This document shows positions 13,252 through 46,009 of a DNA stretch of 64,000 nt, piece by piece; within the stretch, counting starts at the first letter, position 1, and each line of letters opens with the position of its first letter. The position numbers and the translations under genes are program-made. A model generated the notes under the pieces. It was not told where the DNA came from, did no database searches, and worked only from the letters and a program-made list of their open reading frames with translations. Source of the stretch: Pseudomonadota bacterium (GTDB lineage: Bacteria > Desulfobacterota > Syntrophorhabdia > Syntrophorhabdales > Syntrophorhabdaceae); assembly GCA_026388315.1 (NCBI GenBank), contig JAPLKA010000021.1:1-64000 (forward strand), given 5' to 3'.

Positions 13252-13272
13252 AATTGCTCTTCTCCTTCTTTT

Positions 13273-13581: not shown

Positions 13582-13582
13582 G

Positions 13583-15063: not shown

Positions 15064-15078
15064 TTTTTGTCTCTCCTT

Positions 15079-23281: not shown

Positions 23282-23771
23282 GGATTCCTCCTTTTTTTGA
23301 TGTTTTTTGAATCTTATGTGTTTATAAGGGGTGACCCCTTAAAACTACTAAGGGGTCGTGTGTGAGGGGATTATGGTAAGTTTCACTTAATGACGTTTTC
23401 GAGAGATCTACTGATGACTATTTTACTTATATTACTTCTTTGCATTGTTTTTCTCTCCTGATGTTTGAGTACCCAGTTTTATATTCACACATGCCTCAAT
23501 GATTCCGAAAAGCTAACCCCTAAAATGGGGTGTCTACAAAATTGTCTACAAATTATTGGACAAGATTAATTTTCCGATAAGGTTTTAAAAATGACTAAAA
23601 CTTGTAAATTTTGGATTTTACTATTTTACAGACAGGTATGGTCAGATTTTCAAAAAATGCATATTTTACAAGTTTTAAAGGAGGCAACAGATGCATGATA
23701 AGGGGTGACCCCTTCCAACTGCTAAGGGGTCGTGTGTGAGGGTATACGTAATACTTAATAACTATTTTATA
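23282..23771. repeat. Intergenic region with a duplicated 3'-end/terminator module
   Basis: Positions 23324-23368 and 23698-23742 are near copies containing the palindrome AAGGGGTGACCCCTT followed by AAGGGGTCGTGTGTGAGGG. The following bases (TATTACTTCTTTGCATT) are also shared, so the 3' end of the 233-residue gene and its downstream flank were duplicated 374 bp apart. An AT-rich stretch lies between them. A good ribosome site with a five-codon frame (MHDKG) occurs at 23691 on plus; I do not call it a gene. No other gene is seen. Confidence 0.75.
23395..23435 (-). promoter_or_regulatory. Conserved leader motif, copy upstream of helicase operon
   Basis: On plus the block reads GTTTTCG, then CTACTGATGA, then ACTTATATTAC, and lies about 115 bases upstream of the helicase start. 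It is the most divergent of four copies (others at 30431, 45947, 47810). Part of it overlaps the duplicated gene end described for this region. Confidence 0.6.
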
Positions 23772-24473
23772 TTACTTCTTTGCATTAGGGAATGGCAAAT
23801 TTTTCTCTCTTGATACTTGCGGACCTTTCTCCTCTTCTGGAGCTTGTGTAGCTTTCTCGCCTGATGTTTGAGGACCTTTCTCGCCTGGAGCTTGAGGACC
23901 ATTGATTAACTTCTGTATCTTTTTGTTTATATCCAGCATGGCCGTGTTCACTTCGTTATGTATCGCCGCGAGCTTTTTAACCTCTTCGTAGCTGGATATC
24001 GACTGTAGTTCAAATATTTTCTCATTGAGCACTTTTATGCCCGCAGCCAGTTGACCGATTTTCTCATCACGCGGAACCAGGCACATTGAAATTTTCCTGT
24101 TAGCGAGCAATAATTTCTTCTCTTTTGAGTCGTTCACTTCCCTCCATTTTTCAGGCTTGAACGAATGCAGGCTCGGGACATTCGACTTGATGCTTTCCCA
24201 CAGTTTATGTACCGTATCATCCAGTTCTTTGAATACTTCGACGGCATCTTCGTATTTGATTCGGAACGCAACCTGCCTTTTCAGTTTATTTAATTCCCTG
24301 TCCAGACCGGTAAGGTTGATGACAAGCTCAATCCCCATACGGCCTCCCACAGGTATAATAAATATGCTGTCCGGTTCGAGCGCATCGCTCAGTTTTCTTT
24401 CAAACCGTTTTTGCTGTCTTAACAGCCTTTCCTGTTCTTCATTTTTTTGTGTCTCTATTGCCGTTTGCTCCAT
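23772..24473 (-). CDS. Unknown helical protein with repetitive C-terminal tail
   Basis: The protein has 233 residues. It is predominantly helical, with likely coiled-coil stretches at 1-35 and 130-180. The tail (185-225) is built from degenerate repeats of GPQAPGEK type, rich in Pro, Gly and Glu. No family is recognised. It follows the NusA-like gene by 27 bases on the same strand and ends at the duplicated terminator region. It may be a partner of the NusA-like protein; that is context only. Confidence 0.6.
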   Translation of the reverse strand: MEQTAIETQKNEEQERLLRQQKRFERKLSDALEPDSIFIIPVGGRMGIELVINLTGLDRELNKLKRQVAFRIKYEDAVEVFKELDDTVHKLWESIKSNVPSLHSFKPEKWREVNDSKEKKLLLANRKISMCLVPRDEKIGQLAAGIKVLNEKIFELQSISSYEEVKKLAAIHNEVNTAMLDINKKIQKLINGPQAPGEKGPQTSGEKATQAPEEEKGPQVSREKNLPFPNAKK

Positions 24474-24500: not shown

Positions 24501-25214
24501 TCAATTACTTCCTGACTGATTCCTTGATCTGTATTGTTCTATTACTTCCTGACTGATTCCCTTTATCTCTATCTTCACGTTGTAACATAGCTTGGATGCC
24601 AATGTTATGTTCAACCCCTTCTTCCCGATGAACAGGCCGAGGCATCTGTTGTCTACGATAACATGTACTTCTTTGCCGTCGTCGAAGCTCGTTACTACTT
24701 CGATCGATTCCAGATTTCCCGGCGGGCATAACGCATTGACGACAAATTCTTTGATGTCATTTGAATATTTTACGAACGACAACTTCTCGCCAAAGTAATT
24801 CTCAAACCTTATGTCCTCAGTATATTGCTTGAGCATATCGTATAATTCGTAGCTGGTGCTGATATGGTTATCCGACGTATCAATAGCTACCTTAATATAC
24901 CTCCCGATTATGATAGATGATCTTTTGATTAATATTCCCTGATTTATACAAATGTCAGACAGCAGATACTCGAGTATCCTTCGTACATATTGCGGAGACC
25001 TCTGGGTGAGTGTTACCCGCGCACCGTTGATGCCGTATATGGAGGCCATTCCCGTTTCTCCAATCTTGAATTCTTTCCGGGCATACTTTTTAGGGAGAAG
25101 AGCCAATACTTCAGAGTTCAATATTTTTGTAAGATATGAGTCATAGTCCGGCATCGACTTCAGAATGATAAAAGCAGCAAGGTAGCCTATTTTATATTCA
25201 ATAGCATTAATCAA
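24501..25214 (-). CDS. NusA-like KH-domain protein encoded by the element
   Basis: The protein has 237 residues. The C-terminal part VHVIVDNRCLGLFIGKKG followed by LNITLASKLCYNVKIEIKG (about 183-222) is a clear NusA-type second KH domain with the GKKG loop. Upstream, GETGMASIYGINGARVTL and QRSPQYVRRILEYL resemble the NusA S1-KH1 region in order, though weakly. At 237 residues it is about half the length of cellular NusA and lacks the usual N-terminal RNA-polymerase-binding domain. The last codons carry a short tandem duplication. It probably binds RNA during transcription. It lies in the SSB operon. Confidence 0.7.
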   Translation of the reverse strand: MINAIEYKIGYLAAFIILKSMPDYDSYLTKILNSEVLALLPKKYARKEFKIGETGMASIYGINGARVTLTQRSPQYVRRILEYLLSDICINQGILIKRSSIIIGRYIKVAIDTSDNHISTSYELYDMLKQYTEDIRFENYFGEKLSFVKYSNDIKEFVVNALCPPGNLESIEVVTSFDDGKEVHVIVDNRCLGLFIGKKGLNITLASKLCYNVKIEIKGISQEVIEQYRSRNQSGSN

Positions 25215-25321
25215 TTATTCTTCTCACAGGCAGATATTTTTCCGACCCATTTATGACGTCATCAACAGACCCGGGCCACAAATGCACCTCTATTATTTTT
25301 TATTCATCGAATTCCTGGAGA

Positions 25322-25777
25322 TTACATTTCAATATCATCATCGAATTCCGGGAAAAATTCGTCGGCGCTTATGTTTGCAGCCTTGTTTACTTCTTTTTTG
25401 AAACCTGTTTTTTTATCACTACTTCCTGTTTCAGAAGTCTTTTTATCTCCCGAGGGAAGCATGATCACATTGTTTGCAACGATTGAAAACTGTCTCCTTT
25501 TAGAACCGTCCTTCCCGTCGTATCCGCGAGATTCTATCTTGCCTTCAACGTAGATCATGCGCCCTTTCCTGACATATTCGCCAACTATCTCGGCGAGCTT
25601 ACGCCATACATGAATGTCATGCCATTCTGTTCGTTCGTGCTTCGTTCCGCTTTTGTCTTTCCATGACTCCGACGTTGCCAAGCTGAACGTTGCGACGGCT
25701 GTGCCGTCGGCTGTGTACCTTAATTCAGGATCCTTTCCGACGCGGCCTATTAAAGTTACACGATTTACTGATGCCAT
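25322..25777 (-). CDS. ssb: Single-stranded DNA-binding protein (first copy)
   Basis: The protein has 151 residues. The OB fold carries NRVTLIGRVGKDPELRYT, WHDIHVWRKLAE and IYVEGKIESRGY. The tail is acidic but ends EFDDDIEM instead of the usual DDDIPF, so contact with host repair proteins may differ. It is likely involved in conjugative or replicative DNA handling. It starts 3 bp after the stop of a small zinc-ribbon gene whose end carries its ribosome site AAGGAGG. Confidence 0.95.
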   Translation of the reverse strand: MASVNRVTLIGRVGKDPELRYTADGTAVATFSLATSESWKDKSGTKHERTEWHDIHVWRKLAEIVGEYVRKGRMIYVEGKIESRGYDGKDGSKRRQFSIVANNVIMLPSGDKKTSETGSSDKKTGFKKEVNKAANISADEFFPEFDDDIEM

Positions 25778-25779
25778 GA

Positions 25780-25953
25780 TTAATCCTCCTTATTATTTTT
25801 TGCTTGTACTTCAGCGGTTGATTTTGCTGTTCCCAGTACTTTTCCACATACAGTACATCTAAAAGTGCCTTTTACCATCAGGTTACATAGCCGGTTGCCC
25901 TTGCCATACCTTTTGTCTTGAAATTCGTGTTCACAATTACATTTTAATATCAT
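25780..25953 (-). CDS. Small zinc-ribbon protein (57 residues)
   Basis: The sequence starts MILKCNCEHEFQDKRYGKG and later has FRCTVCGKVLG, giving CxC and CxxC pairs. The pattern of C-C-H-FQD-YGKG-R-N and CTVCG matches a widespread group of phage and plasmid zinc-ribbon proteins known to me only as hypothetical. A ribosome site lies upstream (AAGGAGG-like at 25960). It precedes ssb directly. Confidence 0.75.
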   Translation of the reverse strand: MILKCNCEHEFQDKRYGKGNRLCNLMVKGTFRCTVCGKVLGTAKSTAEVQAKNNKED

Positions 25954-25971
25954 CCTTAAACCTCCTTTTTT

Positions 25972-26070
25972 TTAAATTTTCGGTCCCATTGAACATTCCA
26001 ACGCAATTTCTGCTTCCCTGTTTAGTTGACCCGTCTTTCCCCCATGTCTGCTTATTGTGTTCACGGCCAT
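25972..26070 (-). CDS. Possible small protein (32 residues or longer)
   Basis: The frame from ATG 26070 encodes MAVNTISRHGGKTGQLNREAEIAL and then ECSMGPKI. The composition is protein-like, and the frame stays open upstream (IGLRVWS) to the stop of the preceding gene, but with no canonical start there. It fills the gap between two zinc-protein genes on the same strand. A real start may be noncanonical. Confidence 0.35.
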   Translation of the reverse strand: MAVNTISRHGGKTGQLNREAEIALECSMGPKI

Positions 26071-26106
26071 CGACCAAACTCTAAGCCCTATCCCGATATT
26101 TACCGT

Positions 26107-26349
26107 TCACCTTTGCCGCCTGGCGTATTTTTCCCATTCGTCGCATACGTGATCTGCCTCAACCACGTATCTTCTGCTCATTTCCAGTCCGATGGCGGGG
26201 CATCGATATCCGTGACCCAAGGGGTAGCCATCGATGCCCCGGAGCTCTAATAATTGCCGGTGCTTGCAGAATTTACAGCGACGAAATCTTGAATTTTCAG
26301 CCTCTATGACGCTTTTTCTATAATTTAGTTCTTGCTTGTTTTTATTCAC
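26107..26349 (-). CDS. Small zinc-binding protein (80 residues)
   Basis: Cysteines in RRCKFCKH (near 24-28), YRCPAIG and HVCDEW could bind one zinc. It heads the operon that contains ssb and the NusA-like gene. The upstream region has CCTACT and TATGTATTA, a weak form of the leader motif seen elsewhere. The function is unknown. Confidence 0.6.
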   Translation of the reverse strand: MNKNKQELNYRKSVIEAENSRFRRCKFCKHRQLLELRGIDGYPLGHGYRCPAIGLEMSRRYVVEADHVCDEWEKYARRQR

Positions 26350-26482
26350 ACCTACTCCTTGAACAGATATTTTTAGAGAATGTATTTGTATATGTATTAA
26401 CGCAACGTGTTTTGGTTAAAAGAACTTCCCACCGCAAAAGTGAAAATTTGAACCCCCAACTGCCCTAAGGTACTCTCCTATA

Positions 26483-26500
26483 TGGTATAATACACGTGTA
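26483..26500 (+). promoter_or_regulatory. Extended -10 promoter followed by a palindrome
   Basis: TGGTATAAT (26483-26491) is a perfect extended -10 element, and TACACGTGTA (26491-26500) is a perfect 10-bp palindrome overlapping its downstream edge. It points on plus into the repeat pair below and towards the 3' end of the replication gene; no protein gene follows on plus, so it may drive a small RNA. Confidence 0.45.
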
Positions 26501-26501
26501 C

Positions 26502-26623
26502 TGTAACCAGCTGATATCATTGCTTAAAAGACCTCTTTTTTTCCCCACAGGTGCGCGCCGGGGGGTCTTGTAACCAGTTGATATAATTACTTAAAAGACC
26601 TTTTTCGTTCCCCACAGGTGCGC
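26502..26623. repeat. Direct repeat pair (two 55-bp copies, 67 bp apart)
   Basis: Copies at 26502-26556 and 26569-26623 share GTAACCAG, TTAAAAGACCT and TTCCCCACAGGTGCGC with few differences. They lie in a gene-free stretch (26350-26792) between the SSB operon and the initiator gene. They may be iterons, paired RNA structures or remnants of duplication. Confidence 0.7.
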
Positions 26624-26747
26624 ACCCCCCATGTAAAAAACGAGTGATGGTTAACCTTCCCCCGGGTAGAAGATTATTTTTGTGATATGGATGGTACAAT
26701 GGCATTTATTTTCTACAGGATTTTTTTGTAAGATTTAGTTGCAAAAA

Positions 26748-26771
26748 AATCCCCTTTTTGAGAGGGGGATT
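26748..26771 (-). terminator. Terminator of the replication initiator gene
   Basis: AATCCCC and GGGGGATT form a stem followed on the minus strand by a run of seven T. It starts 22 bases after the initiator stop. A related terminator follows the ParB-like gene (32830). Confidence 0.8.
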
Positions 26772-26792
26772 GAAGGAGGATGATGGAGAATT

Positions 26793-28385
26793 TTATCTGA
26801 AGTACACTACTATTACCTTGCCTGACGATGTTTGAGTAATGCTAATCCTTGAGAAGACCTTCTCCTGGAGTTCCTTATGAGCTTCCAAGAGCTGTTGTCT
26901 GACTCTTGCCGGACCGTTTTCTTCTCTTATCTGTAAACGCTGAGCAAGTTGCGTATATGATATATTTACCTTGAGATTATCTGACATAGCAAGCACCGGC
27001 GACAGGCATCTGTATATCCCTCTCGCAAGACCGTTATTAAGAGAGATGTACGTACTGTAGTTTAAACTACTGGCAAAACCAGCGTTTATATTCTTCAGGA
27101 ATACCAGGTTTAGCCATATTTTTGTGGTATATACCCTCTCTTCGTCATCAGCTTTTTGCCCTGAAAAAATGATCCTGTCAAAAATACCAAACGAATCTGT
27201 GATAAACTTTCTTTTTTCCGCATCGTAGAAAGTTTTCTCTGTGACAATTGTCAGGGACTTTATTCTCAGCAGTGATTCTTTTATCATCTTGGATACCTTA
27301 CCCGAACTGTGGTTTAAATTGATCATTCGCGCTATATCTCTCAATCCGCCTACCTCAACCGGATTCGAAATTGGCTTCGGCATTCCGGACAGCACCATAT
27401 TGACAGCCATAAACACAGCCTCGTCAAAAGGTCCGGGCAATCCCATCTTCGAGGGGATTACTACCCATTTACTAGACTCCTTGCCGAACTCCTGCACGAC
27501 AGATATTTCCTCCACCTTGTGTATTCTCGTTCTGCTGTGAGTAAAAATGGGAAACCGCAACAGGTTTTTTTCGTGGTACATCCTCTGTACCGTCACATCG
27601 TTAAGGCTGTGCCGGTAAAGTATGCTTTTTACAGTTCGTTCCACCTCTTTAGCGGGCAGAGGCGGATCGTTCTTCTGATTCCATACCTCTGCCATTTCCA
27701 TACATTCCTCGTAGTCCAGCCTATCATTGACCCAACTTCCGCATAACCGGGCAAGCGTATTGTTCCTGCTTCCCTTGTTGACTCCCTTGTAGAGCTGTTT
27801 CAAATCGATAACTTTTTTATTTTGCTCTTGTGATACGAATATATCAGGCAATGGAGTTATGGGCGCATCAACGGACTCCCATGTATACTGCATCCCTGTC
27901 AGATGCACACTCGGCGGGGCGACGACATAGCCTCCGTCCGCTCTGATGTCTATTTTATTGTCACCATTAACGGAGTTCTTGACGTAACCCTTCACTGGAT
28001 AACGATAGTAGGCGTGAGCGCCCCGGGCGGTCCTGACAACAGCAGTATTGAGATATCCTTTGTTTTTCGCCCACATGACCGCCTCTGTTGAATCGAAGTC
28101 AACGACAAGCAGGTTTGATATTTTTCCCGTGACGATTGCAATATTCGCCATCGGCCATTTTGAAAACCATTCTCTTATCTCATTTTCGGTCGGGTGTCTT
28201 TGCTGATATTCGCTCCATTTGACGAGCGGAGCCTTTGTATCTTTCAGTCGTTCATCTATGACAACACCTTTCGAATAGTGAGACCCTTTTACGGGGATTA
28301 TTGAAAATCCTTGATTCAAATACCACAAGGCGTAGAATAACGTGCTGTTCCCGGATTTGTCATCGACTATAGCTGCAGAATTCAT
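26793..28385 (-). CDS. Primase-polymerase / RepA-type replication initiator fusion
   Basis: I place the start at Met 28385 (GGGAGGG upstream), giving 530 residues; the frame extends 13 codons more. The N-terminal part (about 15-200) is a bifunctional primase-polymerase domain with GFSIIPVKG, LVVDFDSTEAV (catalytic acids), RTARGAHAYYR and IDIRADGGYVVAPPS. A PriCT-like helical part follows (GSRNNTLARLCG, VERTVKSILYRHS). The C-terminal 240 residues resemble plasmid replication initiator protein A (winged helix, with ISLNNGLARGIYRCLSP). It would both recognise an origin and prime synthesis. No helicase domain is present. Confidence 0.8.
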   Translation of the reverse strand: MNSAAIVDDKSGNSTLFYALWYLNQGFSIIPVKGSHYSKGVVIDERLKDTKAPLVKWSEYQQRHPTENEIREWFSKWPMANIAIVTGKISNLLVVDFDSTEAVMWAKNKGYLNTAVVRTARGAHAYYRYPVKGYVKNSVNGDNKIDIRADGGYVVAPPSVHLTGMQYTWESVDAPITPLPDIFVSQEQNKKVIDLKQLYKGVNKGSRNNTLARLCGSWVNDRLDYEECMEMAEVWNQKNDPPLPAKEVERTVKSILYRHSLNDVTVQRMYHEKNLLRFPIFTHSRTRIHKVEEISVVQEFGKESSKWVVIPSKMGLPGPFDEAVFMAVNMVLSGMPKPISNPVEVGGLRDIARMINLNHSSGKVSKMIKESLLRIKSLTIVTEKTFYDAEKRKFITDSFGIFDRIIFSGQKADDEERVYTTKIWLNLVFLKNINAGFASSLNYSTYISLNNGLARGIYRCLSPVLAMSDNLKVNISYTQLAQRLQIREENGPARVRQQLLEAHKELQEKVFSRISITQTSSGKVIVVYFR

Positions 28386-28479
28386 GAATGATCCCTCCCC
28401 TGTTTTTTTCGGAATGATGCACACATTGAGTATTACGGAAGTAATATAGGGAGAGTAAACTACATCCAGGAGGTCTGAT

Positions 28480-28866
28480 TTGCTTATAAATTTTGTTCAG
28501 AGTTTATTATCTATGTTGTTCAAGAAGCGTGACGTAAAAAATCTTAAAATCGCAGATGCATATTTTAACGGAAGCCGCCACTTTAACGAACTTCTCGGAT
28601 ATGTGTATCAGCAGGAGAAGATTTATGAATATAACGCTGCCATCAACAGCACCGATGTCGAGGCGTTTGGTTTTGAGCTTCCGTTAACTGGGACCAGTCT
28701 CGAACATAACTTCTTTATTTTCAGTCGTGTAGAGGTAGCCGAGGAATGGGCGTCCGGAGGCGGTTTGCCCAACAACAGGGCGATAATCCCGTTGTATCTA
28801 AAGATATCCATGGAATCCATGCGATTCCCCGAAGTATCCGGGATAGGCAGAACATATGTCAACTGA
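28480..28866 (+). CDS. Unknown plus-strand protein
   Basis: The protein has 128 residues, starting with TTG behind a strong AGGAGG; ATG at 28513 is an alternative. No family is recognised. It is mostly soluble with a hydrophobic first helix. It reads divergently from the initiator gene and ends at a hairpin terminator (28871-28912), so it is an independent unit that may share control with the initiator. Confidence 0.5.
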   Translation: MLINFVQSLLSMLFKKRDVKNLKIADAYFNGSRHFNELLGYVYQQEKIYEYNAAINSTDVEAFGFELPLTGTSLEHNFFIFSRVEVAEEWASGGGLPNNRAIIPLYLKISMESMRFPEVSGIGRTYVN

Positions 28867-28870
28867 AAAC

Positions 28871-28912
28871 AAAAAAGGGCGTGGCACCAGTGTTTCTGAG
28901 CGCCACACCCCT
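28871..28912 (+). terminator. Hairpin terminator between convergent genes
   Basis: GGGCGTGGC and GCCACACCC pair with one mismatch, with an A run before and a short T-rich stretch after. It separates the 28480 gene from the convergent gene ending at 28925. Confidence 0.6.
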
Positions 28913-28924
28913 TGATTCTACGAT

Positions 28925-29617
28925 CTAATCGACAAAGCCAAAATCTTCCTCATCCAGTTCGACAAGGTTGTCCTTGCAGTTTAATTCAGGAAACATCTCT
29001 TCCTCTGTGTAAATGCTTCCGTAATAATTCACGAATACCCATTTTTCTATTGAACAGGGTTCCCACTGTTCGTCATCGTGGCGTATGTCGTATTTGAAGT
29101 CGTACCCCGGCGGGGGCGTTGCGTCTCTGATATCACTGAACAGACATTCCTTCCCTTTGACGACTACCCTCTGAAATGTCACGGGGGGTTGCAGGCTTTT
29201 GACAAACTCGTCATATCCAACAACACATTCCGGCGTTTCGACAGTCAGTTTGTACCCTACAGGCAATACCTGATCGCGCGTGACGAGAGATCCCCACAAA
29301 TCCCATGCTGTATCGCCGTAAAACTGAAACAGCGTATGGCGGCACGGAGCAATGACGGTCGATATAAAATTTGTGACTGCTTTCAGCTTTTCTTCGTCAT
29401 ATCTGAAGTAGTAATCGCCCTGATAAGGCACGAGCTCGTAGAAGCATTTATTCCCGGGGCCAACATCGCGATTTATACTGAAATCTACACCATCATCTTC
29501 ATACCCGATAACGGAGCCCAGTATTGACGATTCCAATTCTCCAATCTTATTTCTCATCTCTTCAGGGGTTAGTTTTGATTCAAAAGTAACTGATTCCATA
29601 GTAATATAATATCCCAT
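28925..29617 (-). CDS. Unknown acidic element protein
   Basis: The start MGYYITMESV (29617) has TAGGAG upstream; a longer frame to 29716 overlaps another small gene and is rejected. The protein has 230 residues, is rich in Asp, Glu, Tyr and Phe, and has no membrane helix. Its N-terminal part (MGYYITMESVTF, LTPEEMRNKIGELE) resembles a class of phage proteins of unknown role. The C-terminal segment is strongly acidic, which could mimic DNA; that is speculation. Confidence 0.6.
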   Translation of the reverse strand: MGYYITMESVTFESKLTPEEMRNKIGELESSILGSVIGYEDDGVDFSINRDVGPGNKCFYELVPYQGDYYFRYDEEKLKAVTNFISTVIAPCRHTLFQFYGDTAWDLWGSLVTRDQVLPVGYKLTVETPECVVGYDEFVKSLQPPVTFQRVVVKGKECLFSDIRDATPPPGYDFKYDIRHDDEQWEPCSIEKWVFVNYYGSIYTEEEMFPELNCKDNLVELDEEDFGFVD

Positions 29618-29625
29618 ATAATCTC

Positions 29626-29730
29626 CTAATATTTTACAACGTATGCTATCTTTCCCATTTTGACAAAATAGGGAAGCATCTTTTTCAGTATGTAGTCGTG
29701 TCCACCGTTTTCCCAAACGATTCTAATCAT
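29626..29730 (-). CDS. Small protein (34 residues)
   Basis: The frame MIRIVWENGGHDYILKKMLP continues to FVKMGKIAYVVKY. A very strong ribosome site AAGGAGG lies seven bases before the ATG, and the stop is eight bases before the next start (29617), a typical operon arrangement. The family is unknown. Its ribosome site is better than that of most neighbours, which is the main argument that it is real. Confidence 0.6.
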   Translation of the reverse strand: MIRIVWENGGHDYILKKMLPYFVKMGKIAYVVKY

Positions 29731-29877
29731 GTTGCCTCCTTAGATATTTAATTTTTTGTAGCTGTGATAGTTGCTTCTATTTGTTTTAAGAGTAAAACTT
29801 CGACTTTTTTATATGCCACTCTTTACAGGGGTATGGTTAGACAAGCTGAAGTGTCCTGTTCTGCTCATTCGTATACG

Positions 29878-30138
29878 TTATCGCCGCTCTTTCTTGTATT
29901 TTGTGCATGAAGTAATGGAGATGGCTATACCGGGGATTGTGTCGCCATATTTCCATCTGGGGGCAATGTAGTCTGATAGTATCTCATGGTAAAAATCACC
30001 GTGGGTAATATCCATTCCTACCGGACAGAAACTTCTTATATATCTTGCGCAGGTGGTGCAAAGGTGCTTGCTCTGCGGATAGGCCAGGCTTTCTGCCGTT
30101 CTGGTAATGATTTTTTCAACGGCATCTTTTGTCTGCAT
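29878..30138 (-). CDS. Small Cys-containing element protein
   Basis: The protein has 86 residues. CTTCARYIRSFCP (about 27-39) and a later single Cys suggest a metal site. A ribosome site GGAGGATAACC precedes the ATG; the gene follows the 30141 gene by two bases. The function is unknown. Confidence 0.6.
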   Translation of the reverse strand: MQTKDAVEKIITRTAESLAYPQSKHLCTTCARYIRSFCPVGMDITHGDFYHEILSDYIAPRWKYGDTIPGIAISITSCTKYKKERR

Positions 30139-30140
30139 GG

Positions 30141-30356
30141 TTATCCTCCTTCCGCGACGTAATGGTTCTGATTAAAGCCACACCCTGAACATATTGATTT
30201 ATCCCTGCATTTTTTGCATACCTCCTCCTTCCTGATGAAGCCGGGCAGTTCCTTGAAGATCATTTCCATTGTACTGGTCATAGGTCTTTCTATTGCCCAT
30301 GCAATCCTTCTGAGCATTGAGGATGCCAGTTGTGATAATTCTGGTGTATATGCCAT
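30141..30356 (-). CDS. Small conserved zinc-binding protein of mobile elements
   Basis: The protein has 71 residues: MAYTPELSQLASSMLRRIAW, then a helix, then CKKCRDKSICSGCGF, a four-cysteine site. I recall this arrangement (YTPELS, RRIAWA, C..CRDK..C..C) from many deltaproteobacterial elements and plasmids, always unnamed. AAGGAGG lies upstream. It is the first gene of a unit with a conserved leader motif at 30431. Confidence 0.7.
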   Translation of the reverse strand: MAYTPELSQLASSMLRRIAWAIERPMTSTMEMIFKELPGFIRKEEVCKKCRDKSICSGCGFNQNHYVAEGG

Positions 30357-30430
30357 AATGTTGCCCTCCTTAATTTTTTATAATTGGATTTAAAACGAAA
30401 AAACCTTCCCAAAATGGAGGTTTGCTGATT

Positions 30431-30471
30431 GTTTTCGGAAATACCTACTGATGATTTTGCTTATGTATTAC
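30431..30471 (-). promoter_or_regulatory. Conserved leader motif, copy at 30.4 kb
   Basis: On plus it reads GTTTTCGGA, ACCTACTGATGATTTTG, then TTATGTATTAC. It lies about 75 bases upstream of the 30356 start. On the minus strand, TTGGCA and TAATAC at 18-bp spacing just upstream give a plausible promoter, which would place the motif in the transcribed leader. Confidence 0.7.
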
Positions 30472-30574
30472 TTCTTACCTTTTTTTGCTGCCAACTAATA
30501 AAAAAGTGGTCATTCCTATGAACTGAAATGGGAAGTGATACCGTCAAATAAGGGGGTATACCGCTTGGTTCTAA

Positions 30575-30590
30575 ATAGTAATATTACTAT
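30575..30590. promoter_or_regulatory. Perfect 16-bp palindrome upstream of the RecD-like operon
   Basis: ATAGTAATATTACTAT at 30575-30590 is a perfect inverted repeat in the divergent intergenic region, 54 bases before the 30644 start. It is a candidate operator. Confidence 0.5.
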
Positions 30591-30643
30591 AGGAATACGT
30601 ATTATCTAAACATCCCGATTAATGACACGAAAGGAAAGTACAT

Positions 30644-30874
30644 ATGGAAAATGAGAACGAACTGCCATCTTTGCGAGATGAGACCCGACAAAACTATTCG
30701 GAAGTTTCTCTTCCTTCTTCTGCATCACCTGTTCAATTGTACGAAGCTCTTTCAATTAAAAAAGCACCATATAATCGGAACTTTGACTGTAATCTATATA
30801 ATCAATGTCTATTGACAGCAGCTGTAAAACATTGGGTATCGTTCAGCTGCCGCTCATGCAGGAACCATAACTAA
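30644..30874 (+). CDS. Small zinc-binding protein upstream of RecD-like helicase
   Basis: The protein has 76 residues. The C-terminal half has CNLYNQCLLTAAVKHWVSFS followed by CRSCRN, a C-x5-C...W-SF-C-x2-C arrangement seen in small deltaproteobacterial zinc proteins (from memory). GGAAAG lies upstream of the ATG. It is 11 bases from the helicase gene and likely co-transcribed. Confidence 0.6.
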   Translation: MENENELPSLRDETRQNYSEVSLPSSASPVQLYEALSIKKAPYNRNFDCNLYNQCLLTAAVKHWVSFSCRSCRNHN

Positions 30875-30885
30875 CATGGGGATTT

Positions 30886-32592
30886 ATGGTTAAGGGCATT
30901 GTTGTACAGACCAGAAATACCAGAAATGGCGATCTGCACCGTGTAAGAAGCAGGTCATGGGTCTATGTACCCGAGAAGAATAGTAATCCCTCCGTGATCC
31001 CAACACAAGGGGGCACATTTAAAGGGGAAAAAAAGAAAAACATATTCATTGCCGGTGATTCAGGGACATACAACATCGATACCTGCAAGTCATATGAGAG
31101 CGTCAATAGGTATGCTGTCAAAGAAAAACTTGCCGTCCCGGGATACCCTTCATTTCTATTCAAAGAGATGACCGCGCTACTGTGGCTTATGGGGAGGAAG
31201 GCGATGCTCAGGAAGTTCTTGGCCTTCTCCTACAAGAAGCAAATACAATATCTCCAGAACCCATACTTCTTTTACTTCAATGGACACCTCGATTTTCATT
31301 CCGCATATGTCATCTCTGAGAGGACACAGCAACCCGGATCTCTTGCAGAAAAGGTATACGCAACAAGCTATCATGTTGTTGATGAAGCGTATGGCAACGC
31401 ACAGGGATCACTTTCCATTGCTGTTGTAGTCGAGCAGGTATCCAGACTTCTCGATGTAGAAGAAGGCGACGTATCCCCGGTTATGGAAGAGGTTACAAAA
31501 CTCCCGCATCACAAGATTGTCTTCAGCTATGACCGTATCTACCTGAGTTCCGTCTTTTATCTCAGCAAGAAGGCGCTCATGATGCTGACTGATAACCCCG
31601 AAACGCTCCCGATTTTTTCAACGGATGATGATCACATCCGTAGTTTGATGAATCACAGATATACGATACTGTCAGGGACAGCAGGGACAGGGAAAACTAC
31701 CTTGCTCAAAAAGATCGCCTCGATGTCAAGCCGTGTTATCCTGTCGGCAACAACAGGTAAGGCAGCAAAACTGCTGGGCAGCAAGGCCGTCACCGTCCAC
31801 AGCCTGCTCGGATTCGGCAGGAAGGGGTTTTCTGTAGATACCCTGGATTGTGACCTGCTTATAGTGGACGAGGCATCTATGCTTAACTGGCATACCCTTC
31901 ATGCAATTCTCAAGGCAGCCCCGAGAGTGGTATTCTCAGGCGACCCAGGACAGCTTCCTCCCGTTGAAGGGGAAAGCGTTTTCAAAATAATGACCGATGT
32001 TCTCCCCGTTGTTGAACTCACAAAAAAGTGGAGATTTGCCAATAGCGGTGAGCCCTCTGTGAAAGTTTACCATGTAGATAATGAATTCTCGGCCATGCTG
32101 CTTGTCAAAAAGATAGCAACGACACTCAAAGAACATGGCAAGACATTTCAGGTCATCACCCCTGTTCACGGCGGTCCTTTAGGGACAAGACGATTGAACG
32201 TGTTCCTGCAGAAGATCGTCAACCCGCAATCGGAAAGTGTTTTTCAGGAGATAAAGGCGCACGACAAGGTGATCGTCACTGAGAATGTTTACGTGGATGG
32301 CGAACTCATTGCCTCGAACGGCCAGATGGGGCATGTCGTATCAAAGGATATGGGGTTTATCGGATTGCAATTCCCCTCAGATGGAGATGGAACGGTATTG
32401 ATTGAACCAAAGGATATAAAACTTGCATATGCGCTCACGGTACACAAGTTTCAGGGCAGCGAAAGCGATTATGTGATTTTCGTGATACCCCCCAAGACAG
32501 ACAGGGAGTTTTTGACAGACGAGATGGTGTTTGTCGGGACAACGAGAGGTAGGAAGATGACGTACGTGATAGATGGATTAGGTGTGTGTTAG
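30886..32592 (+). CDS. RecD/TraI-like superfamily 1 helicase
   Basis: The protein has 568 residues. The N-terminal 230 residues are unassigned. Walker A GTAGTGKTTLL is near 267, TTGKAAKLL follows, motif II IVDEASML is near 327, motif III is FSGDPGQLPPVEG, motif V/VI is ALTVHKFQGSESD and TTRGRKM. This is the RecD2-type (5' to 3') helicase core. No relaxase domain is seen. On the plus strand, unlike most of the element, it may aid replication or repair. Confidence 0.85.
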   Translation: MVKGIVVQTRNTRNGDLHRVRSRSWVYVPEKNSNPSVIPTQGGTFKGEKKKNIFIAGDSGTYNIDTCKSYESVNRYAVKEKLAVPGYPSFLFKEMTALLWLMGRKAMLRKFLAFSYKKQIQYLQNPYFFYFNGHLDFHSAYVISERTQQPGSLAEKVYATSYHVVDEAYGNAQGSLSIAVVVEQVSRLLDVEEGDVSPVMEEVTKLPHHKIVFSYDRIYLSSVFYLSKKALMMLTDNPETLPIFSTDDDHIRSLMNHRYTILSGTAGTGKTTLLKKIASMSSRVILSATTGKAAKLLGSKAVTVHSLLGFGRKGFSVDTLDCDLLIVDEASMLNWHTLHAILKAAPRVVFSGDPGQLPPVEGESVFKIMTDVLPVVELTKKWRFANSGEPSVKVYHVDNEFSAMLLVKKIATTLKEHGKTFQVITPVHGGPLGTRRLNVFLQKIVNPQSESVFQEIKAHDKVIVTENVYVDGELIASNGQMGHVVSKDMGFIGLQFPSDGDGTVLIEPKDIKLAYALTVHKFQGSESDYVIFVIPPKTDREFLTDEMVFVGTTRGRKMTYVIDGLGVC

Positions 32593-32660
32593 CTGTAGAG
32601 CAGCGTAGTGATATTCAGAGATATTTCTCTTTAGTTCTATTGTAGACATAAATCCGCCCC

Positions 32661-32829
32661 AAACCGATGGACAGATTTTTGTGCCCAGGGCACAGGCTTT
32701 TGACCATCAAACCGATGGACAGATTTTTGTGCATAGTGCACAGGTTTTTGACCATCAAACCGATGGACAGATTTTTGTGCCCAGGGCACAGGCTTTTGAC
32801 CATCAAACCGATGGACAGATTTTTGTTGC
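32661..32829. repeat. Array of 48-bp direct repeats (three full, one partial)
   Basis: Units start at 32661, 32709, 32757 and 32805 (AAACCGATGGACAG...). Each full unit has two dyads: CCATC/GATGG across the unit junction and GTGCC-CAG-GGCAC in the middle. In unit 2 the second dyad is GTGCA-TAG-TGCAC, so both arms changed together. It lies in the 310-bp gap between the convergent RecD-like and ParB-like genes; no gene in the gap is convincing. It is a candidate centromere or iteron origin. Confidence 0.85.
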
Positions 32830-32862
32830 AAAAAACCCCCCGCTAAGCAGCGAGGGGGATTA
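32830..32862 (-). terminator. Terminator of the ParB-like operon
   Basis: CCCCCGCT and AGCGAGGGGG form a GC-rich stem followed by six T on minus. Sequence flanking it (GGATGGTGGAGAATT) resembles the flank of the initiator terminator at 26748, so the 3' ends are related. Confidence 0.8.
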
Positions 32863-32902
32863 GGTTTAGGATGGTGGAGAATTGCTACTTCAATATCTCT
32901 TT

Positions 32903-34102
32903 TTACTCTTCTTTGTCGAGAGGGGTTTTTACACCTTTGTCGCCTGCTGGTTTAATTGTGTCCAAAAATTTCTGTATTTCATTTATCTCCTCAATGGCGG
33001 CGGCAAGATGTTTTATAATAGCATTCTTTGTATCTCTTTCGTTGATCCACAGATCAGGGCCGCATTGTATTATAGTGTTCCTGATATGATCTGCATCCAT
33101 TCCAATGAGTTTGCAACGGTTTACTATAGTTTGCGGATTTGATACCGCAGCTACTATGTTTTTCTGTTGATTTATTTTGTTTTGGAGTTTAACCTTCTCT
33201 TTTTCGATGCTTTTCTTTACATTGTCGGATTTGTCAATTTGTTCCTGCATGGCTTTGATTATTGCGTTTCTCTTATCCACCTCCAACGACATATTTACAG
33301 CGAGAACTCGTTGTGTTTCTATCTCCTCATTGAGGGTTTTCTCTGATTCTTCCTTTGCATTTTCATAAGCAATCCGGATATTATCGTCTGCATCCCTGTA
33401 TTCCTCTTCCATTTCCTTTTTCTTTGCATCTACTAATATTTCGAGGTCCTTTTGCTTTGTCTTCTGCAATGCCTCATATTTTTCTTTGTAATCTTCAAAC
33501 GTTTTCTTTTCCATTTCGATTTTCGTTTTAAACTCGCGCAGTTCTTTAATTTCTTCATCACCTTCCAGCACTTGTTTTTCCAACTTCTTTAACTCCACTT
33601 TGTCCGCGATGACCTTTTGGGGGATCGCATTGAAAAAAAGCTGCTGTTCCGCGACAGGAATGTTACAGATGTGTTGCAGGGTGGTGTCATTTAAGTACTG
33701 TGCGAAACCTTGATATGCGGGTATCAGAGATTGTTCCATGCGTTCGCGGTTTTTCTTCTTGTAATCCTCTTTTATCTTTCTCATCTCTACCCTTTCTCCA
33801 TGGTCGAGATCCCTCCTGATCAAGTCAGTGTCGAATATCGCAGCTACTCTATTATTAGCCGTTACGATTTCGCAAGGAACTTCAGTAAGGCCCAACCGCT
33901 TTATCGCATCAAGCCTGTTGAAACCGGAAAGAAGGGTAAATCCATCTTCTCCCTTTTCAACCAGCAGTGGAGAAAAAATACCACTCGTCCGGATGCTTAC
34001 CATAAGTTCCTTTACTACTTCCTCGTCCAAAGCTCTGAATAAACGATCTCCCGGTTTGATACTTTCTGTTCTGACCATTACTATCGCATTGTTTTCTGTC
34101 AT
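32903..34102 (-). CDS. ParB N-terminal domain protein with long coiled coil
   Basis: The protein has 399 residues. Residues 8-110 form a ParB/Srx-like domain (IKPGDRLFRALDE, GFTLLSGFNRLDAIKRLG, DLIRRDLDHGERVEMRKI). A helix-turn-helix-like part follows (HICNIPVAEQQLFF near 145). Residues 175-330 are a long charged coiled coil. No ParA is visible in the window. It lies directly beside the 48-bp repeats, so a role in segregation or in transcription control from the repeats is likely. It overlaps the 34099 gene by 4 bases. Confidence 0.8.
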   Translation of the reverse strand: MTENNAIVMVRTESIKPGDRLFRALDEEVVKELMVSIRTSGIFSPLLVEKGEDGFTLLSGFNRLDAIKRLGLTEVPCEIVTANNRVAAIFDTDLIRRDLDHGERVEMRKIKEDYKKKNRERMEQSLIPAYQGFAQYLNDTTLQHICNIPVAEQQLFFNAIPQKVIADKVELKKLEKQVLEGDEEIKELREFKTKIEMEKKTFEDYKEKYEALQKTKQKDLEILVDAKKKEMEEEYRDADDNIRIAYENAKEESEKTLNEEIETQRVLAVNMSLEVDKRNAIIKAMQEQIDKSDNVKKSIEKEKVKLQNKINQQKNIVAAVSNPQTIVNRCKLIGMDADHIRNTIIQCGPDLWINERDTKNAIIKHLAAAIEEINEIQKFLDTIKPAGDKGVKTPLDKEE

Positions 34103-34692
34103 TTTGCTGCCTCCTTATTGCTTTGTAATTGCTCAAAATCGTTGAGTAACTTCTCTAACATCATATGATATACGACACTCGTCATCATATTTTTTGATTT
34201 CATACCATGTTCTTTTGCCTTAGCAATTATTTTTTTGTATGTGTCTTCGTCTACTTCTATATCCTTGTCGTAGGCAAAGTCTATCCTGTCACATCTCTCA
34301 CCTATTAATGAGGGATTATTAGCAACACTGATAAACAATTCAATTTGTTTTGGATTCAAATCAGGGAATGCCAACTTCATATGATATGTGCGGAGGCGGA
34401 TTCTGGGCTTCGGCTCGGGCTTAGGCGCATTTTTTTTTAATTCTCTAAGATAGAGGATATTTGCTACATCCTGAGCTTCTTTGATGAAGATTAAGATACG
34501 CTTTTGCTTGCGATTAGTGCTTGTTATTTTCGATTCAAAATAACCTTTTTCAACGTATTTATAAATCAATCTCTTTTTTACTGACTGCTTTATTCTTTTA
34601 TACTCTTTGACTGTTGCCCATATTCCTTCTTTTTCACCCTGAGGTTCTTCAACGGCTTTCGTCTGACAAGCTTCTTCTGGCGTTTCCGTCAT
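34099..34692 (-). CDS. Unknown basic protein, possibly DNA-binding
   Basis: The protein has 197 residues with a very basic middle (KEYKRIKQSVKKRLIYKYV) and SKITSTNRKQKRI. This could be a winged helix. The C-terminal region is helical. It lies between the sigma-like gene and parB-like gene, coupled to the latter by an ATGA overlap. The place resembles that of centromere-binding or ParB-partner proteins. No family is recognised. Confidence 0.6.
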   Translation of the reverse strand: MTETPEEACQTKAVEEPQGEKEGIWATVKEYKRIKQSVKKRLIYKYVEKGYFESKITSTNRKQKRILIFIKEAQDVANILYLRELKKNAPKPEPKPRIRLRTYHMKLAFPDLNPKQIELFISVANNPSLIGERCDRIDFAYDKDIEVDEDTYKKIIAKAKEHGMKSKNMMTSVVYHMMLEKLLNDFEQLQSNKEAAK

Positions 34693-34712
34693 TTCGTTAC
34701 CTCCTTTTTTTG

Positions 34713-35165
34713 TTAGTAATCAAAATAGAAGTGACTGTTACCATCGTGTTGACCGTTTTCATTTTCGTTTTTATCCCATTCAGGAAATGGGCTTACGGTC
34801 CGTTCCGATGTAAATACATATCCTCCTAATTCAAGTTTCTTTTTCTTTTTACGGTATTCTGAATTGGTCAATATCTTAATTTTACCTTTCGGTGAGCGTG
34901 CTATATATACTACCTCACCCCCTCCTTCTTCTACCATTTTGTAAAGATGTTTTTGGATGTACCAGAAAGTGAATGTCGTCAATGTCATCTTTCCCGCCTT
35001 AGTTGGATCGTATACTTTAATAGCATCGTCGCATGCGATATACGCCTGGTTTATAAAATCGGCAGGTTCTAAGTAAGTCGAAAATTTTTCTACACTTTTT
35101 GCGAGCTTTTCAATCTGCGGTCTCATTTTTGTCCACAACTTACAGACTATTTCTGTTTCACACAT
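34713..35165 (-). CDS. Sigma-70 region 2-like protein
   Basis: I choose Met 35165 (AAGGGGAA upstream), giving 150 residues; a longer frame exists to 35231. The segment LEPADFINQAYIACDDAIKV, then YDPTKAG, then TFTFWYIQKHLYKMVEE has the order of sigma region 2.1-2.4 (D-L-I-Q-E-G-Y..A...FDP..G..F.TYA.WWI...). A basic stretch follows but no clear region 4 helix-turn-helix. It may recruit RNA polymerase to element promoters or act as an anti-sigma-like regulator. Confidence 0.6.
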   Translation of the reverse strand: MCETEIVCKLWTKMRPQIEKLAKSVEKFSTYLEPADFINQAYIACDDAIKVYDPTKAGKMTLTTFTFWYIQKHLYKMVEEGGGEVVYIARSPKGKIKILTNSEYRKKKKKLELGGYVFTSERTVSPFPEWDKNENENGQHDGNSHFYFDY

Positions 35166-35231
35166 TTGATTTCCCCTTAAAGAAGTAATATTAAATACGA
35201 ACGTTAAGATGCATATGTATGAATGGGTCAT

Positions 35232-36221
35232 GCGTATTCACGGTATATTTAGGTATTACTATTTAGGTCACCATGTATCCCCCGGGAAGAATCCTCTTAT
35301 GCCCTGGCCTCTTTCAAGAACAGGGAGGGGAGACTCCCGTCCGTTCCTCTTTGTGATGAATAAGAGCGGTAACAGCCTCTTCATTCATGACCCGCGATTT
35401 CCCTTTGTTCTTTTTCTCTTCGAAGAATAAACTCTCTAACTTCCCCTCCCTCTCATAGGCCCTGGCCCGGGGAGAGGGCCTATGATTTTTCACGAAGAAT
35501 CAGTTCCATCTCTCCCCGTGAGAGTTTTCTTCCCCCGACAAAATCGGCAATGACGCCGAAATGGAAGACAGCAATAACCTTTTTTGTTTCTTTATCTATA
35601 CTGACGCCTCTCTATATGGTTTTCTGTAAGAAGTACCTGAATGTGCGGACAAGATAGCCGCAGAAAAATGGTAGGGTCATGCTCATAGGCGGAGTAGTGC
35701 ACATTTGAGTGAATGACTTGCAGGAACACAGTCCCTTGAGATGTCCTTGAGAGTATTAATATCAGGGGATGGTAGATTATATATCCGCGATGCCCGGAAG
35801 ATGAGTCCCTTATACCGGTACTGCAGGTTCTGGCGGGGAATGCAGAGCATTAAGCGGTAAAAAAGTATCTTTGTCATCAATGAACACAGAATGGTCCACA
35901 GGGAATGCCGGAAGCCTCTTGAAAAGATATCCGGCCGTAATGTGCAGACGATACGGCAATTAGAACACCGGTATCGTTTTCACCCACAGGGGTTATGCAA
36001 ACCTTTCAAAACACCTCTGAACATATCCGTACCCCCGGATACGGGATGATTAGCAGGAGATACAACGTTTTAGCCTGGGCCATGGGTAGTTTTTACCCGG
36101 ATCATATATTTTCTCTACATCTACCGATACATATGCAATACCGTTAAACAGGTACCATCCTGATACATCGGTATGTATAACTGGACTTCCCCATGGCTAA
36201 AGCCAGGGGCTGCATATTTGG
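35232..36221. other. Gene-free interval of about 1 kb
   Basis: No convincing gene is found here; short frames at 35209-35430 and 35683-35880 lack ribosome sites and protein-like sequence. It holds a strong hairpin (CATAGGCCCT / AGGGCCTATG, then five T) at 35454-35489 and, near 36190-36211, a CCATGGCTAAAGCCAGGGG hairpin that resembles IS200/IS605-type ends. It may be remnant of an insertion or an origin; the latter cannot be shown. Confidence 0.5.
35454..35489 (+). terminator. Strong hairpin with T run
   Basis: CATAGGCCCT and AGGGCCTATG form a perfect 10-bp stem, followed by ATTTTT. No plus-strand protein gene precedes it closely, so it may end a non-coding transcript. Confidence 0.65.
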
Positions 36222-36626
36222 TCAATTTTCGATATCTTCCACATCATCGAGACTCACGATTTCTTTTGCGATCCTCCCCAGGATGTTAAATTCAACCATG
36301 CAGGTTCGTTTCTTGACTCCTTTCACTATAGCTTCGAGTCCTTTGTATGGCCCCGACTTTATTCTTACAACTTTTCCTGGCTCCGGTACGAAAGGAGTGA
36401 ACATGCTGCTCAAATCACCGGCATTTTTAAGTATGGTAAAATAATTACTGTTATCACAATCCTTTATAATCAGTTTTATTTGCAGTTCGGGCGGCAGTAT
36501 CAGCAAGGGATCGCGCCACACAAGGAGATATTCGGGAAATTTTGTTTCATCGAATCTTTTATCATGAGTTTTAAGTAATTCCTTAACTCTTTTGATAAGC
36601 CTTCTATTGCCATAGATTACATACAT
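36222..36626 (-). CDS. NusG/RfaH-like KOW protein encoded by the element
   Basis: The protein has 134 residues. The C-terminal KOW domain is FVPEPGKVVRIKSGPYKGLE, then VKGVKKRTCMVEFNILGR (residues about 78-125), exactly the NusG pattern. The N-terminal part (MYVIYGNRRLIKRV..PEYLLVW) fits a reduced NGN domain. Length is shorter than NusG (about 180). Such paralogues (RfaH, LoaP, TaA) relieve termination in long mobile or secondary operons. It is a single-gene unit with TATATGTGTATTAC upstream of its start. Confidence 0.75.
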   Translation of the reverse strand: MYVIYGNRRLIKRVKELLKTHDKRFDETKFPEYLLVWRDPLLILPPELQIKLIIKDCDNSNYFTILKNAGDLSSMFTPFVPEPGKVVRIKSGPYKGLEAIVKGVKKRTCMVEFNILGRIAKEIVSLDDVEDIEN

Positions 36627-39494: not shown

Positions 39495-41072
39495 TTATTT
39501 TATTGCGTCCAGGAACATCGAGAAATCGCCCTGTTCCAGACGATTCAACCAATTTGTAGCGACCTCTTCAGAAATTGCTTCAGCATTAATAGCAGTTTTC
39601 TGTATACTGACCGGAACGCCGTAACTACCGGCAAATTCCTTGATTTTCTGGATTAAGTCATCCATAACATCTTTGTTTCTGCTATTGCCATTGCCGTTAC
39701 CGGCCTTCTTCAATGCATCGAGCATCTCCTTATGGAAGTCCTGCGCCTGTGTAAACGTCCATCCCTTCCAGGACCCGGGATATCTTTTTCGTATCCCCTG
39801 GTAAGTATCAACAGCAATTTTGGCCTTGATGCCGGCGCACTCTTTGACGATGGTAGTTATTTTGTTTTGATCGGGGTTCTCCTCTTCTGCCTGTGCAGGC
39901 GTTGAAGCGGTTTCCTGCTTCGTTTCCTTTTCGGGAGCTTCAGTAACAGCAGCGTCAGCATTTGAAACTTCTGCTTTGGGAGCTTCGGTTTCAGGCTGCG
40001 CTGCTGTTTTCTCCGGCGTTTCTTCTATGGCAGGCTTAATGGGTTCCACAGCAGTTTCAACAACGGTTTCAGCAAACACTTCATTTTCAGATTCGGAATC
40101 CGTGATGACCGCTTTTGTGAGCATTGCAGCAGCGTTTGTCCCTTTTGACAGTACATTCCTGCTCTCATACATGAGAGCAAGTTCTGTCATATCTACTGTC
40201 ATATCAGGATAGATAAGGTACTGTTTCCGCTGTATTGGTTTACCGGTTTTCCTGTCTATGGAAGAAACTATCTCTTCCGTCTTTGTGAGTTGGAATACAG
40301 GTTTTCCGTCATCGTCGAACATTCTTGCCAGCCTACCTCCCGTTATCTGTGATACGTTCTGAAGGACGCTTTTTATAGCGACAAGTGAGTACCACGAGGT
40401 TGTCGGGAGTACCCATATGCCCACCCCTTTAGCGCCGGGGATGTAGAACTGCACCATTCCTCCGAATTTACATCCCCCCGTCTGGTATTCCCGGCAGTCT
40501 TCGGGTGAACAAGGTCGTGTCCCCCACTGTCTGCCTCCGAAGATCCTTTTTCCTGGTTCAGCGTTCAGCGGGAAACGGCATAAGGTTTCCACCTTGTTTC
40601 CGGTAATTTTTATGTCGCTCATGAATTTTATTCCCGACTGTCCCCAGCACCTCAATGAATGGGGCACAAGGTTCCACCATTCGTTTACCGGGAACCATAC
40701 TGGTATCCTTCTGACCTTCCCGTCTTTGTCGGCGTAGAGCTTTTTTATGATCGCTGCGTTTTCCGGATTGAGGCAGTCGCCGGCATTGACCGTGAAGTAA
40801 TCCACGTTTGCCGGTTTCAGCTTTGACTCTTTGTTCACATCCAGGCCAAGCGCTTTGTCTATATCGTCCCATGATGCTTCTTTGGCCGTCATGTCGCGAT
40901 AGACCTTCTCGTCCTGTGACGTACAGCCTGCTTTTAACACCATGATGCCCGGTCTGATAACCCCCGCCTTCGGGAGCGAGTATTTAGGACCGAGAAGTGT
41001 CGATATTTTTGCAATGTATTCTGAATCGCCGTTTTCCAATGTTGCAACGGTTCCTGTTGTGTTGTCTGTCAT
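39495..41072 (-). CDS. Gp3-like recombination directionality factor family protein
   Basis: The protein has 525 residues. The N-terminal half (GVIRPGIMVLKAGC, VDYFTVNAGDCLNPE, RRIPVWFPVNEWW, RPCSPEDCREYQTGGCKFGG, VLPTTSWYSL) has the pattern of the phage Gp3/RDF and hydrolase-or-metal-binding family; the cysteines may bind metal. A long Glu/Ala/Thr-rich linker (330-405) leads to a helical C-terminal part. In phages the family drives excision with serine integrases; here the integrase is a tyrosine type, so a recombination or replication role unlike Gp3 is also possible. Confidence 0.7.
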   Translation of the reverse strand: MTDNTTGTVATLENGDSEYIAKISTLLGPKYSLPKAGVIRPGIMVLKAGCTSQDEKVYRDMTAKEASWDDIDKALGLDVNKESKLKPANVDYFTVNAGDCLNPENAAIIKKLYADKDGKVRRIPVWFPVNEWWNLVPHSLRCWGQSGIKFMSDIKITGNKVETLCRFPLNAEPGKRIFGGRQWGTRPCSPEDCREYQTGGCKFGGMVQFYIPGAKGVGIWVLPTTSWYSLVAIKSVLQNVSQITGGRLARMFDDDGKPVFQLTKTEEIVSSIDRKTGKPIQRKQYLIYPDMTVDMTELALMYESRNVLSKGTNAAAMLTKAVITDSESENEVFAETVVETAVEPIKPAIEETPEKTAAQPETEAPKAEVSNADAAVTEAPEKETKQETASTPAQAEEENPDQNKITTIVKECAGIKAKIAVDTYQGIRKRYPGSWKGWTFTQAQDFHKEMLDALKKAGNGNGNSRNKDVMDDLIQKIKEFAGSYGVPVSIQKTAINAEAISEEVATNWLNRLEQGDFSMFLDAIK

Positions 41073-45892: not shown

Positions 45893-45946
45893 GGTTGCCT
45901 CCTTTTTTATTTGGATTTTTAAGGTTGCCCTGAATGTTTTCTGAAT

Positions 45947-45987
45947 GTTTTCGGATAAACCTACTGAAGATTTTGATTATGTATTAC
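45947..45987 (-). promoter_or_regulatory. Conserved leader motif, copy at 45.9 kb
   Basis: On plus: GTTTTCGGATAAACCTACTG, then AAGATTTTGATTATGTATTAC. It is the closest match to the 30431 copy (about 35 of 41 positions) and lies upstream of the primase-SbcCD unit. Confidence 0.75.
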
Positions 45988-46009
45988 TTATTTACGTATG
46001 CCACAAAAA

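Follow-up and report, generated by a model that had tools for sequence, protein, structure and literature searches.

Antitermination systems that serve the long operons of conjugative elements have been described for pLS20 (conAn) and Tn916 (canT) (PMC8955417, PMC11658703), and NusG paralogues resident in plasmid tra operons are also known and have been proposed to act as antiterminators (PMC7593976). RfaH, which is chromosomally encoded, has been described as the only processive antiterminator known to act on Gram-negative conjugation operons (PMC8955417), and LoaP overcomes a NusA-dependent terminator in its leader (PMC12691694). Here we analyse a 64,000-nucleotide stretch of contig JAPLKA010000021.1 (the window), which carries an integrated F-type integrative and conjugative element (ICE) of a Syntrophorhabdaceae genome (G000). 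An earlier note on this DNA had placed a NusA-type KH domain, a KOW domain and a sigma region 2-like segment in one conjugative element and had suggested that the element may run a dedicated antitermination or polymerase-recruiting system. All three are encoded by intact open reading frames (ORFs) within the ICE:

24501..25214, minus strand: standalone NusA-like protein, S1-KH1-KH2 (intact ORF, 237 aa)
34713..35165, minus strand: sigma-70 region 2-only protein (intact ORF)
36222..36626, minus strand: likely compact NusG/RfaH-type paralogue with a KOW domain and a short, NGN-like N-terminal half (intact ORF, 134 aa)

With moderate confidence, we propose that the element encodes a terminator-gated antitermination circuit, operating most likely via the NusG paralogue, and a separate module for its tra genes.

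Repeated leaders, their terminators and the KOW protein

Four operons of the window are headed by a shared leader of ~50 nt with the composition GTAATAY – ~20 nt – CAGTAGG – CGAA. Repeated leaders had been remarked upon in the earlier note, and the motif recurs in further genomes, G390 and G610 among them.

30427..30473, minus strand: leader copy ahead of the operon from 30356 (E 7.5e-11)
30398..30422, minus strand: intrinsic terminator AACCTCCATTTTGGGAAGGTTTTTT, between the preceding leader and the first gene
45944..45989, minus strand: leader copy preceding the replication operon, which runs from 45892 to 36896 (E 4.3e-10)
47806..47856, minus strand: leader copy preceding the ArdC operon at 47700 (E 2.3e-10)
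23393..23437, minus strand: divergent leader copy preceding the helicase/tra operon, which runs from 23281 (E 3.5e-8), conserved in locus L055

The leader model (R1), built from sequence only, detects four copies in the window, nine in the ICE of G390 and six in G610. Of the 390 genomes that were sampled from the phylum, only four (G000, G023, G027 and G390) match it at E <= 1e-5; G610 is also positive, and at weak scores the model touches a few further genomes of the family. When k-mers were counted without bias in the ICE of G390, which comes from a different class, the same CAGTAGG and GTAATA words emerged, derived from nine full copies. All nine leaders of G390, and 5/6 of those in G610 (14/15 together), have a strong intrinsic terminator ahead of the gene that they head, compared with 16 of the 161 other gene starts having an upstream gap that served as controls (Fisher p 1e-11). 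A terminator that follows the leader and precedes the gene is the arrangement expected of an antitermination circuit, and to this extent the suggestion of a dedicated system is upheld.

The 36222..36626 protein passes the Pfam KOW cut-off (27.9 bits against 22.3) and matches the PHROG family 'transcription antiterminator' at 3.7e-6; KOW domains of NusG and RfaH are matched as well. Its G390 homologue is of equal length and 35% identical, a two-member profile of the pair aligns with RfaH across residues 21-127 (3.7e-4), and the G610 homologue aligns almost end to end with Spt5 (positions 16-141). On the strength of these two alignments the protein is likely to be a compact NusG paralogue; Pfam NGN gives no match in the KOW proteins, though the RfaH and Spt5 alignments extend into the N-terminal half. 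KOW genes were found in three genomes (G000, G390 and G610) and none was found elsewhere in the order; among the 390 sampled genomes, G390 is the only one besides the window's. The gene lies near ribonucleotide reductase in the window and G390, and close to the single-stranded DNA-binding protein (SSB) in G390 and on a second contig of G610. The host genome itself encodes, besides NusG, a second NGN-containing NusG paralogue of 169 aa (G000:C84:90417-90698; L004).

Every genome with a KOW gene bears leaders. The NusA-like gene is present in G408, G414 and G181, where no KOW gene was found in the sampled genomes or fetched stretches and where R1 finds no leader, even though sigma-like and ParB-like genes are carried too. 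Since the NusA-like protein occurs without leaders while all KOW genomes have them, the KOW protein is most likely the better candidate for reading the leader, a correlation drawn from three KOW genomes. In the circuit that we envisage, operons open with the common leader (GTAATAY, about 20 nt, CAGTAGG, CGAA). In the related ICEs an intrinsic terminator comes directly after it and ahead of the first gene, which would make transcription stop early by default. The compact KOW paralogue would be recruited at the leader and would allow the polymerase to read through. CAGTAG might be recognised as non-template DNA, much as RfaH recognises ops, or recruitment might depend on the RNA, as with LoaP. 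CAGTAG resembles the core of the RfaH ops site; the string is short, and the likeness serves as a lead only.

Several observations weigh against this circuit. In the window an intrinsic terminator follows one leader of the four (that of the 30356 operon), and across G000, G023 and G027 the count is 2/16, no more than in the controls. The single window terminator is conserved with a better-paired stem in G023, which shares two of the four window leaders; with so few terminators in this lineage, the case for a circuit in the window depends on the relatives. G023 and G027 bear leaders but no KOW gene was found in them, nor was a NusA-like gene found in G027, and in G610 the KOW and NusA-like genes are on different contigs. 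The single-sequence AlphaFold2 (AF2) model of the window KOW protein is poor (predicted local distance difference test (pLDDT) 44), leaving the N-terminal half without a confident fold, and we discarded a fold search made with it as meaningless. Finally, GTAATAC is often palindromic or repeated.

This last point bears on the main rival, possible though somewhat unlikely, which holds that the leader is a shared promoter/operator only: a regulator of the element, perhaps the sigma-2/ParB-like pair, would bind GTAATAC, CAGTAGG would lie around the transcription start, and the terminators would insulate neighbouring operons. Among noncoding 7-mers only the ribosome-binding site is more enriched than GTAATAC/GTATTAC, of which 9/13 copies are noncoding and some palindromic; the sigma-like protein is a genuine region 2 protein, and most leaders of the window lineage have no terminator. 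However, the terminators of G390 and G610 are placed between leader and own gene rather than at the end of the preceding operon, and G408, G414 and G181 possess the sigma-like and ParB-like genes with no leader match.

Leader copies were also seen at unlinked loci on contigs C19, C20 and C35 of G000 (L214, L215 and L216), some of these contigs having integrases; the L215 copy precedes an apparent DNA polymerase beta-clamp gene. These loci are possibly other elements using the same switch. A leader match on a viral contig (L224) has no homologue of an ICE gene or module beside it and was set aside as chance. In G027, L231 is a related ICE remnant in which the ribonucleotide reductase ORF is split into two frames and no KOW gene was found.

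The NusA-like protein and its conserved module

The NusA-type KH domain of the earlier note proved to be the larger S1-KH1-KH2 portion of NusA. Its match to the NCBIfam NusA model TIGR01953 (E 3.6e-18) spans model positions 152-339 of 340, and that of a family member begins at position 132, so that S1, KH1 and KH2 are covered; the N-terminal domain that binds RNA polymerase (RNAP) is absent, matches beginning at model position 132-152. A family profile finds Thermotoga maritima NusA at 5e-16, and a search of the protein's own genome returned host NusA (E 8.8e-7) as the sole other match. Structure prediction, which failed for the window KOW protein, gave a confident NusA fold here: an AF2 model from a 10-sequence alignment has a pLDDT of 84.3, and Foldseek matches it to NusA structures at 6e-19 to 1e-15, including 9a74, 1k0r, 2asb and 2atw, the last two being M. 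tuberculosis NusA-RNA complexes. Relative to host NusA, the KH1 GxxG segment is deleted in every family member aligned, while the KH2 GxxG is retained in nearly all (GKKG in the window protein). With no RNAP-binding domain and one GxxG loop gone, the protein cannot be an ordinary NusA.

The standalone proteins, all about 205-240 aa in length, group in a single clade that is separate from housekeeping NusA (support 100/100). A misread fragment of a housekeeping gene was dismissed as an explanation, the clade consisting of standalone genes that are nearly all intact and come from several families. Omnitrophota matches of the NusA profile grouped with full-length housekeeping NusA in the tree and were rejected. 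The viral contigs searched contain no relatives of the NusA-like, KOW or sigma-like proteins, and the plasmid collection yielded NusA of housekeeping type only and no match for the KOW or sigma-like protein.

These features also invite the reading, which we regard as unlikely, that the NusA-like protein is itself the antiterminator, its S1 and KH2 domains binding the leader RNA (CAGUAGG...CGAAAA/CGAACA), displacing host NusA and weakening NusA-stimulated intrinsic terminators. The protein is the RNA-binding half of NusA minus the polymerase-binding domain, its fold is that of the M. tuberculosis NusA-RNA complex, and LoaP acts by antagonising NusA (PMC12691694). Loss of the KH1 GxxG loop, however, should reduce RNA binding, and the leaders track the KOW gene better, the protein being present in G181, G408 and G414 with no leader detected. 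The string GAAAACAAUCAG is similar to the RNA ligand of M. tuberculosis NusA; it is short, and we treat the likeness as a lead only.

The sigma-like protein alone resembles sigma70-ECF weakly (E 0.0037). The region 2 assignment is secured by its family: a seven-member profile matches SigA region 2 at 4.7e-7, and two relatives (L176 and L078) pass the Pfam Sigma70_r2 cut-off, the one from G610 scoring 32.5 bits against 24. No match to region 4, which recognises the -35 element, was found, the sigma-like proteins stopping after region 2 or early region 3. A third gene accompanies the pair:

32903..34102, minus strand: ParB-N + coiled-coil protein, third module member
34099..34692, minus strand: variable protein between the sigma-like and ParB-like genes

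All eight ICEs with enough sequence (the window, G023, G010, G181, G390, G408, G414 and G610) hold NusA-like, sigma-2-like and ParB-like genes no more than about 10 kb apart, usually ahead of the tra genes. In G610 and G181 (L176 and L159) the module is contiguous and runs into SLT/TrbI/DsbC/TraV/TraC. As for the co-occurrence of the original trio, the NusA-like and sigma-like genes are thus together in every related ICE with enough context; the KOW gene joins them in the G390 ICE and, on another contig, in the G610 genome, and was not found in most elements bearing the NusA-like gene. The gene between the sigma-like and ParB-like genes is present in the same eight, with poorly conserved sequence; a by-eye resemblance to excisionases was dropped, the protein being too variable for such a claim. 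Just downstream of the ParB-like gene, three 48-nt direct repeats with palindromes (TGTGCCCAGGGCACA, TGTGCATAGTGCACA) at 32660-32826 are candidate ParB-binding sites or iterons.

Situated at the head of the tra region, the sigma-2-like/ParB-like/NusA-like module would start and maintain tra transcription separately from the KOW protein. The sigma-2 and ParB-like proteins may act at initiation, and the S1-KH1-KH2 fragment may bind the nascent RNA as part of the same complex or in competition with host NusA. For these roles, as for recruitment and read-through at the leader, we infer function from the proteins and their arrangement.

In Syntrophorhabdus the NusA-like gene occupies a conserved chromosomal neighbourhood away from tra genes. 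The chromosomal copies fall among the ICE copies in the tree, which suggests domestication from an ICE. This copy, together with the absence of the NusA N-terminal domain, could mean that the protein has left transcription and now regulates tra mRNA post-transcriptionally or at translation by binding RNA, its link to the sigma and ParB-like genes reflecting operon history only. We think this quite improbable: three Syntrophorhabdus genomes keep the sigma-2-like and ParB-coiled-coil pair at a distance of 12-18 kb from the NusA-like gene of the chromosome, which suggests that a functional tie to transcription proteins has persisted. On Syntrophorhabdus chromosomes (L075, L078 and L081), the ParB-coiled-coil gene of the pair has lost its ParB N-terminal domain.

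A broader version of our proposal, tentative and on balance doubtful, is that a family of Gram-negative ICEs has built its own transcription machinery out of captured host parts, with sigma-2/ParB-like proteins at initiation, the NusG paralogue and NusA fragment at elongation, and terminator-gated leaders that would include, perhaps, the C19, C20 and C35 loci.

The element and other features of the window

The element contains both an integrase and F-type type IV secretion system (T4SS) genes. Together with an RDF-like protein (recombination directionality factor), SSB, primases, SbcCD-like proteins, ribonucleotide reductase, ParB and ArdC, these identify it as an ICE. Its left end is beyond the window start, which is also the contig start, and no relaxase was identified within the window. 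Relatives place the host in the Syntrophorhabdaceae, a family name taken from Syntrophorhabdus contigs among them.

10433..16326, minus strand: F-type T4SS genes TrbI/TraB, DsbC, TraV and TraC, downstream of the module (directly after it in L159 and L176)
23772..24473, minus strand: partner protein with no assigned function, directly downstream of the NusA-like gene
25322..25777, minus strand: SSB, the gene upstream of the NusA-like gene in the same run
39495..41072, minus strand: recombination-directionality-factor-like protein
49182..50234, plus strand: tyrosine integrase, close to the right end of the element

Homologues of the partner protein are found downstream of the NusA-like gene in L064, L159, L161, L163 and L165. 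Between the NusA-like and tra operons a hairpin (GACCCCTTA...TAAGGGGTCACCCCTTAT) without a T run occurs twice (23304-23473 and 23698-23742) and is present in G023 too. On the plus strand within the tra run there is, by eye, a HicB-like antitoxin frame (17397-17980), with a terminator at 17878-17909 that is nearly identical to one at 36794-36827. The stretch 1-5380, which is related to the PKD-domain protein (5381-8992), contains direct repeats of 222 nt, and two 58-nt direct repeats, 88% alike, lie upstream of the 26349 gene (26502-26626).

Comparison with described systems

The NusA-like family shares with bacterial NusA (TIGR01953) the S1-KH1-KH2 fold and sequence and the KH2 GxxG, and differs in its size, in the missing N-terminal domain and KH1 GxxG loop, and in being carried by ICEs beside sigma-2-like and ParB-like genes. 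Archaeal NusA (KH-KH only) naturally has no bacterial N-terminal domain either, whereas the ICE family keeps the bacterial S1 and has lost the KH1 GxxG loop. The sigma-like protein has regions 2.1-2.4 of the sigma-70 family, with the conserved aromatic segment FTFWYIQK, but is without region 4 and in most ICEs is 145-195 aa long.

The earlier note had considered NusA and NusG homologues on one element to be undescribed. The NusG half of that claim gives way to the paralogues resident in tra operons (PMC7593976). We found no description of a mobile NusA derivative in the literature, our coverage of which was incomplete, and as far as that search shows the NusA-derived part is an undescribed component. 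A natural S1-KH1-KH2 fragment that ICEs retain for its function, and that appears to have been domesticated on a chromosome, would provide a test of what NusA's RNA-binding half can do when the polymerase anchor is missing.

The combination of leader, terminator and NusG paralogue is the arrangement of LoaP (PMC12691694). With RfaH, ActX, UpxY and LoaP generally, the system shares a KOW (and possibly NGN-like) architecture, a candidate leader element and, in the ICE relatives, a leader terminator; it differs in the short N-terminal half of the KOW protein, in the many leader copies per ICE and in a KOW gene accompanied by a NusA derivative within the genome. The candidate recruitment element, CAGTAGG...CGAA, also differs from the ops sequence of RfaH. 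Private antitermination of long conjugation operons would be common ground with conAn and canT (PMC8955417, PMC11658703), but here NusG and NusA derivatives are involved, in a Gram-negative-type F-like ICE, and the leader is repeated at several operons; of the conAn arrangement, in which a protein and an RNA from the head of the conjugation operon bring about read-through of internal terminators, the sequences show the position of the module and the leader terminators of the relatives. If our proposal is correct, the repeated leader makes the set of targets directly readable, and the switch and stop signal shared by related elements suggest that the element itself decides when its genes are read through. 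This family of ICEs would then carry its own processive antiterminator, unlike the chromosomal RfaH (PMC8955417).

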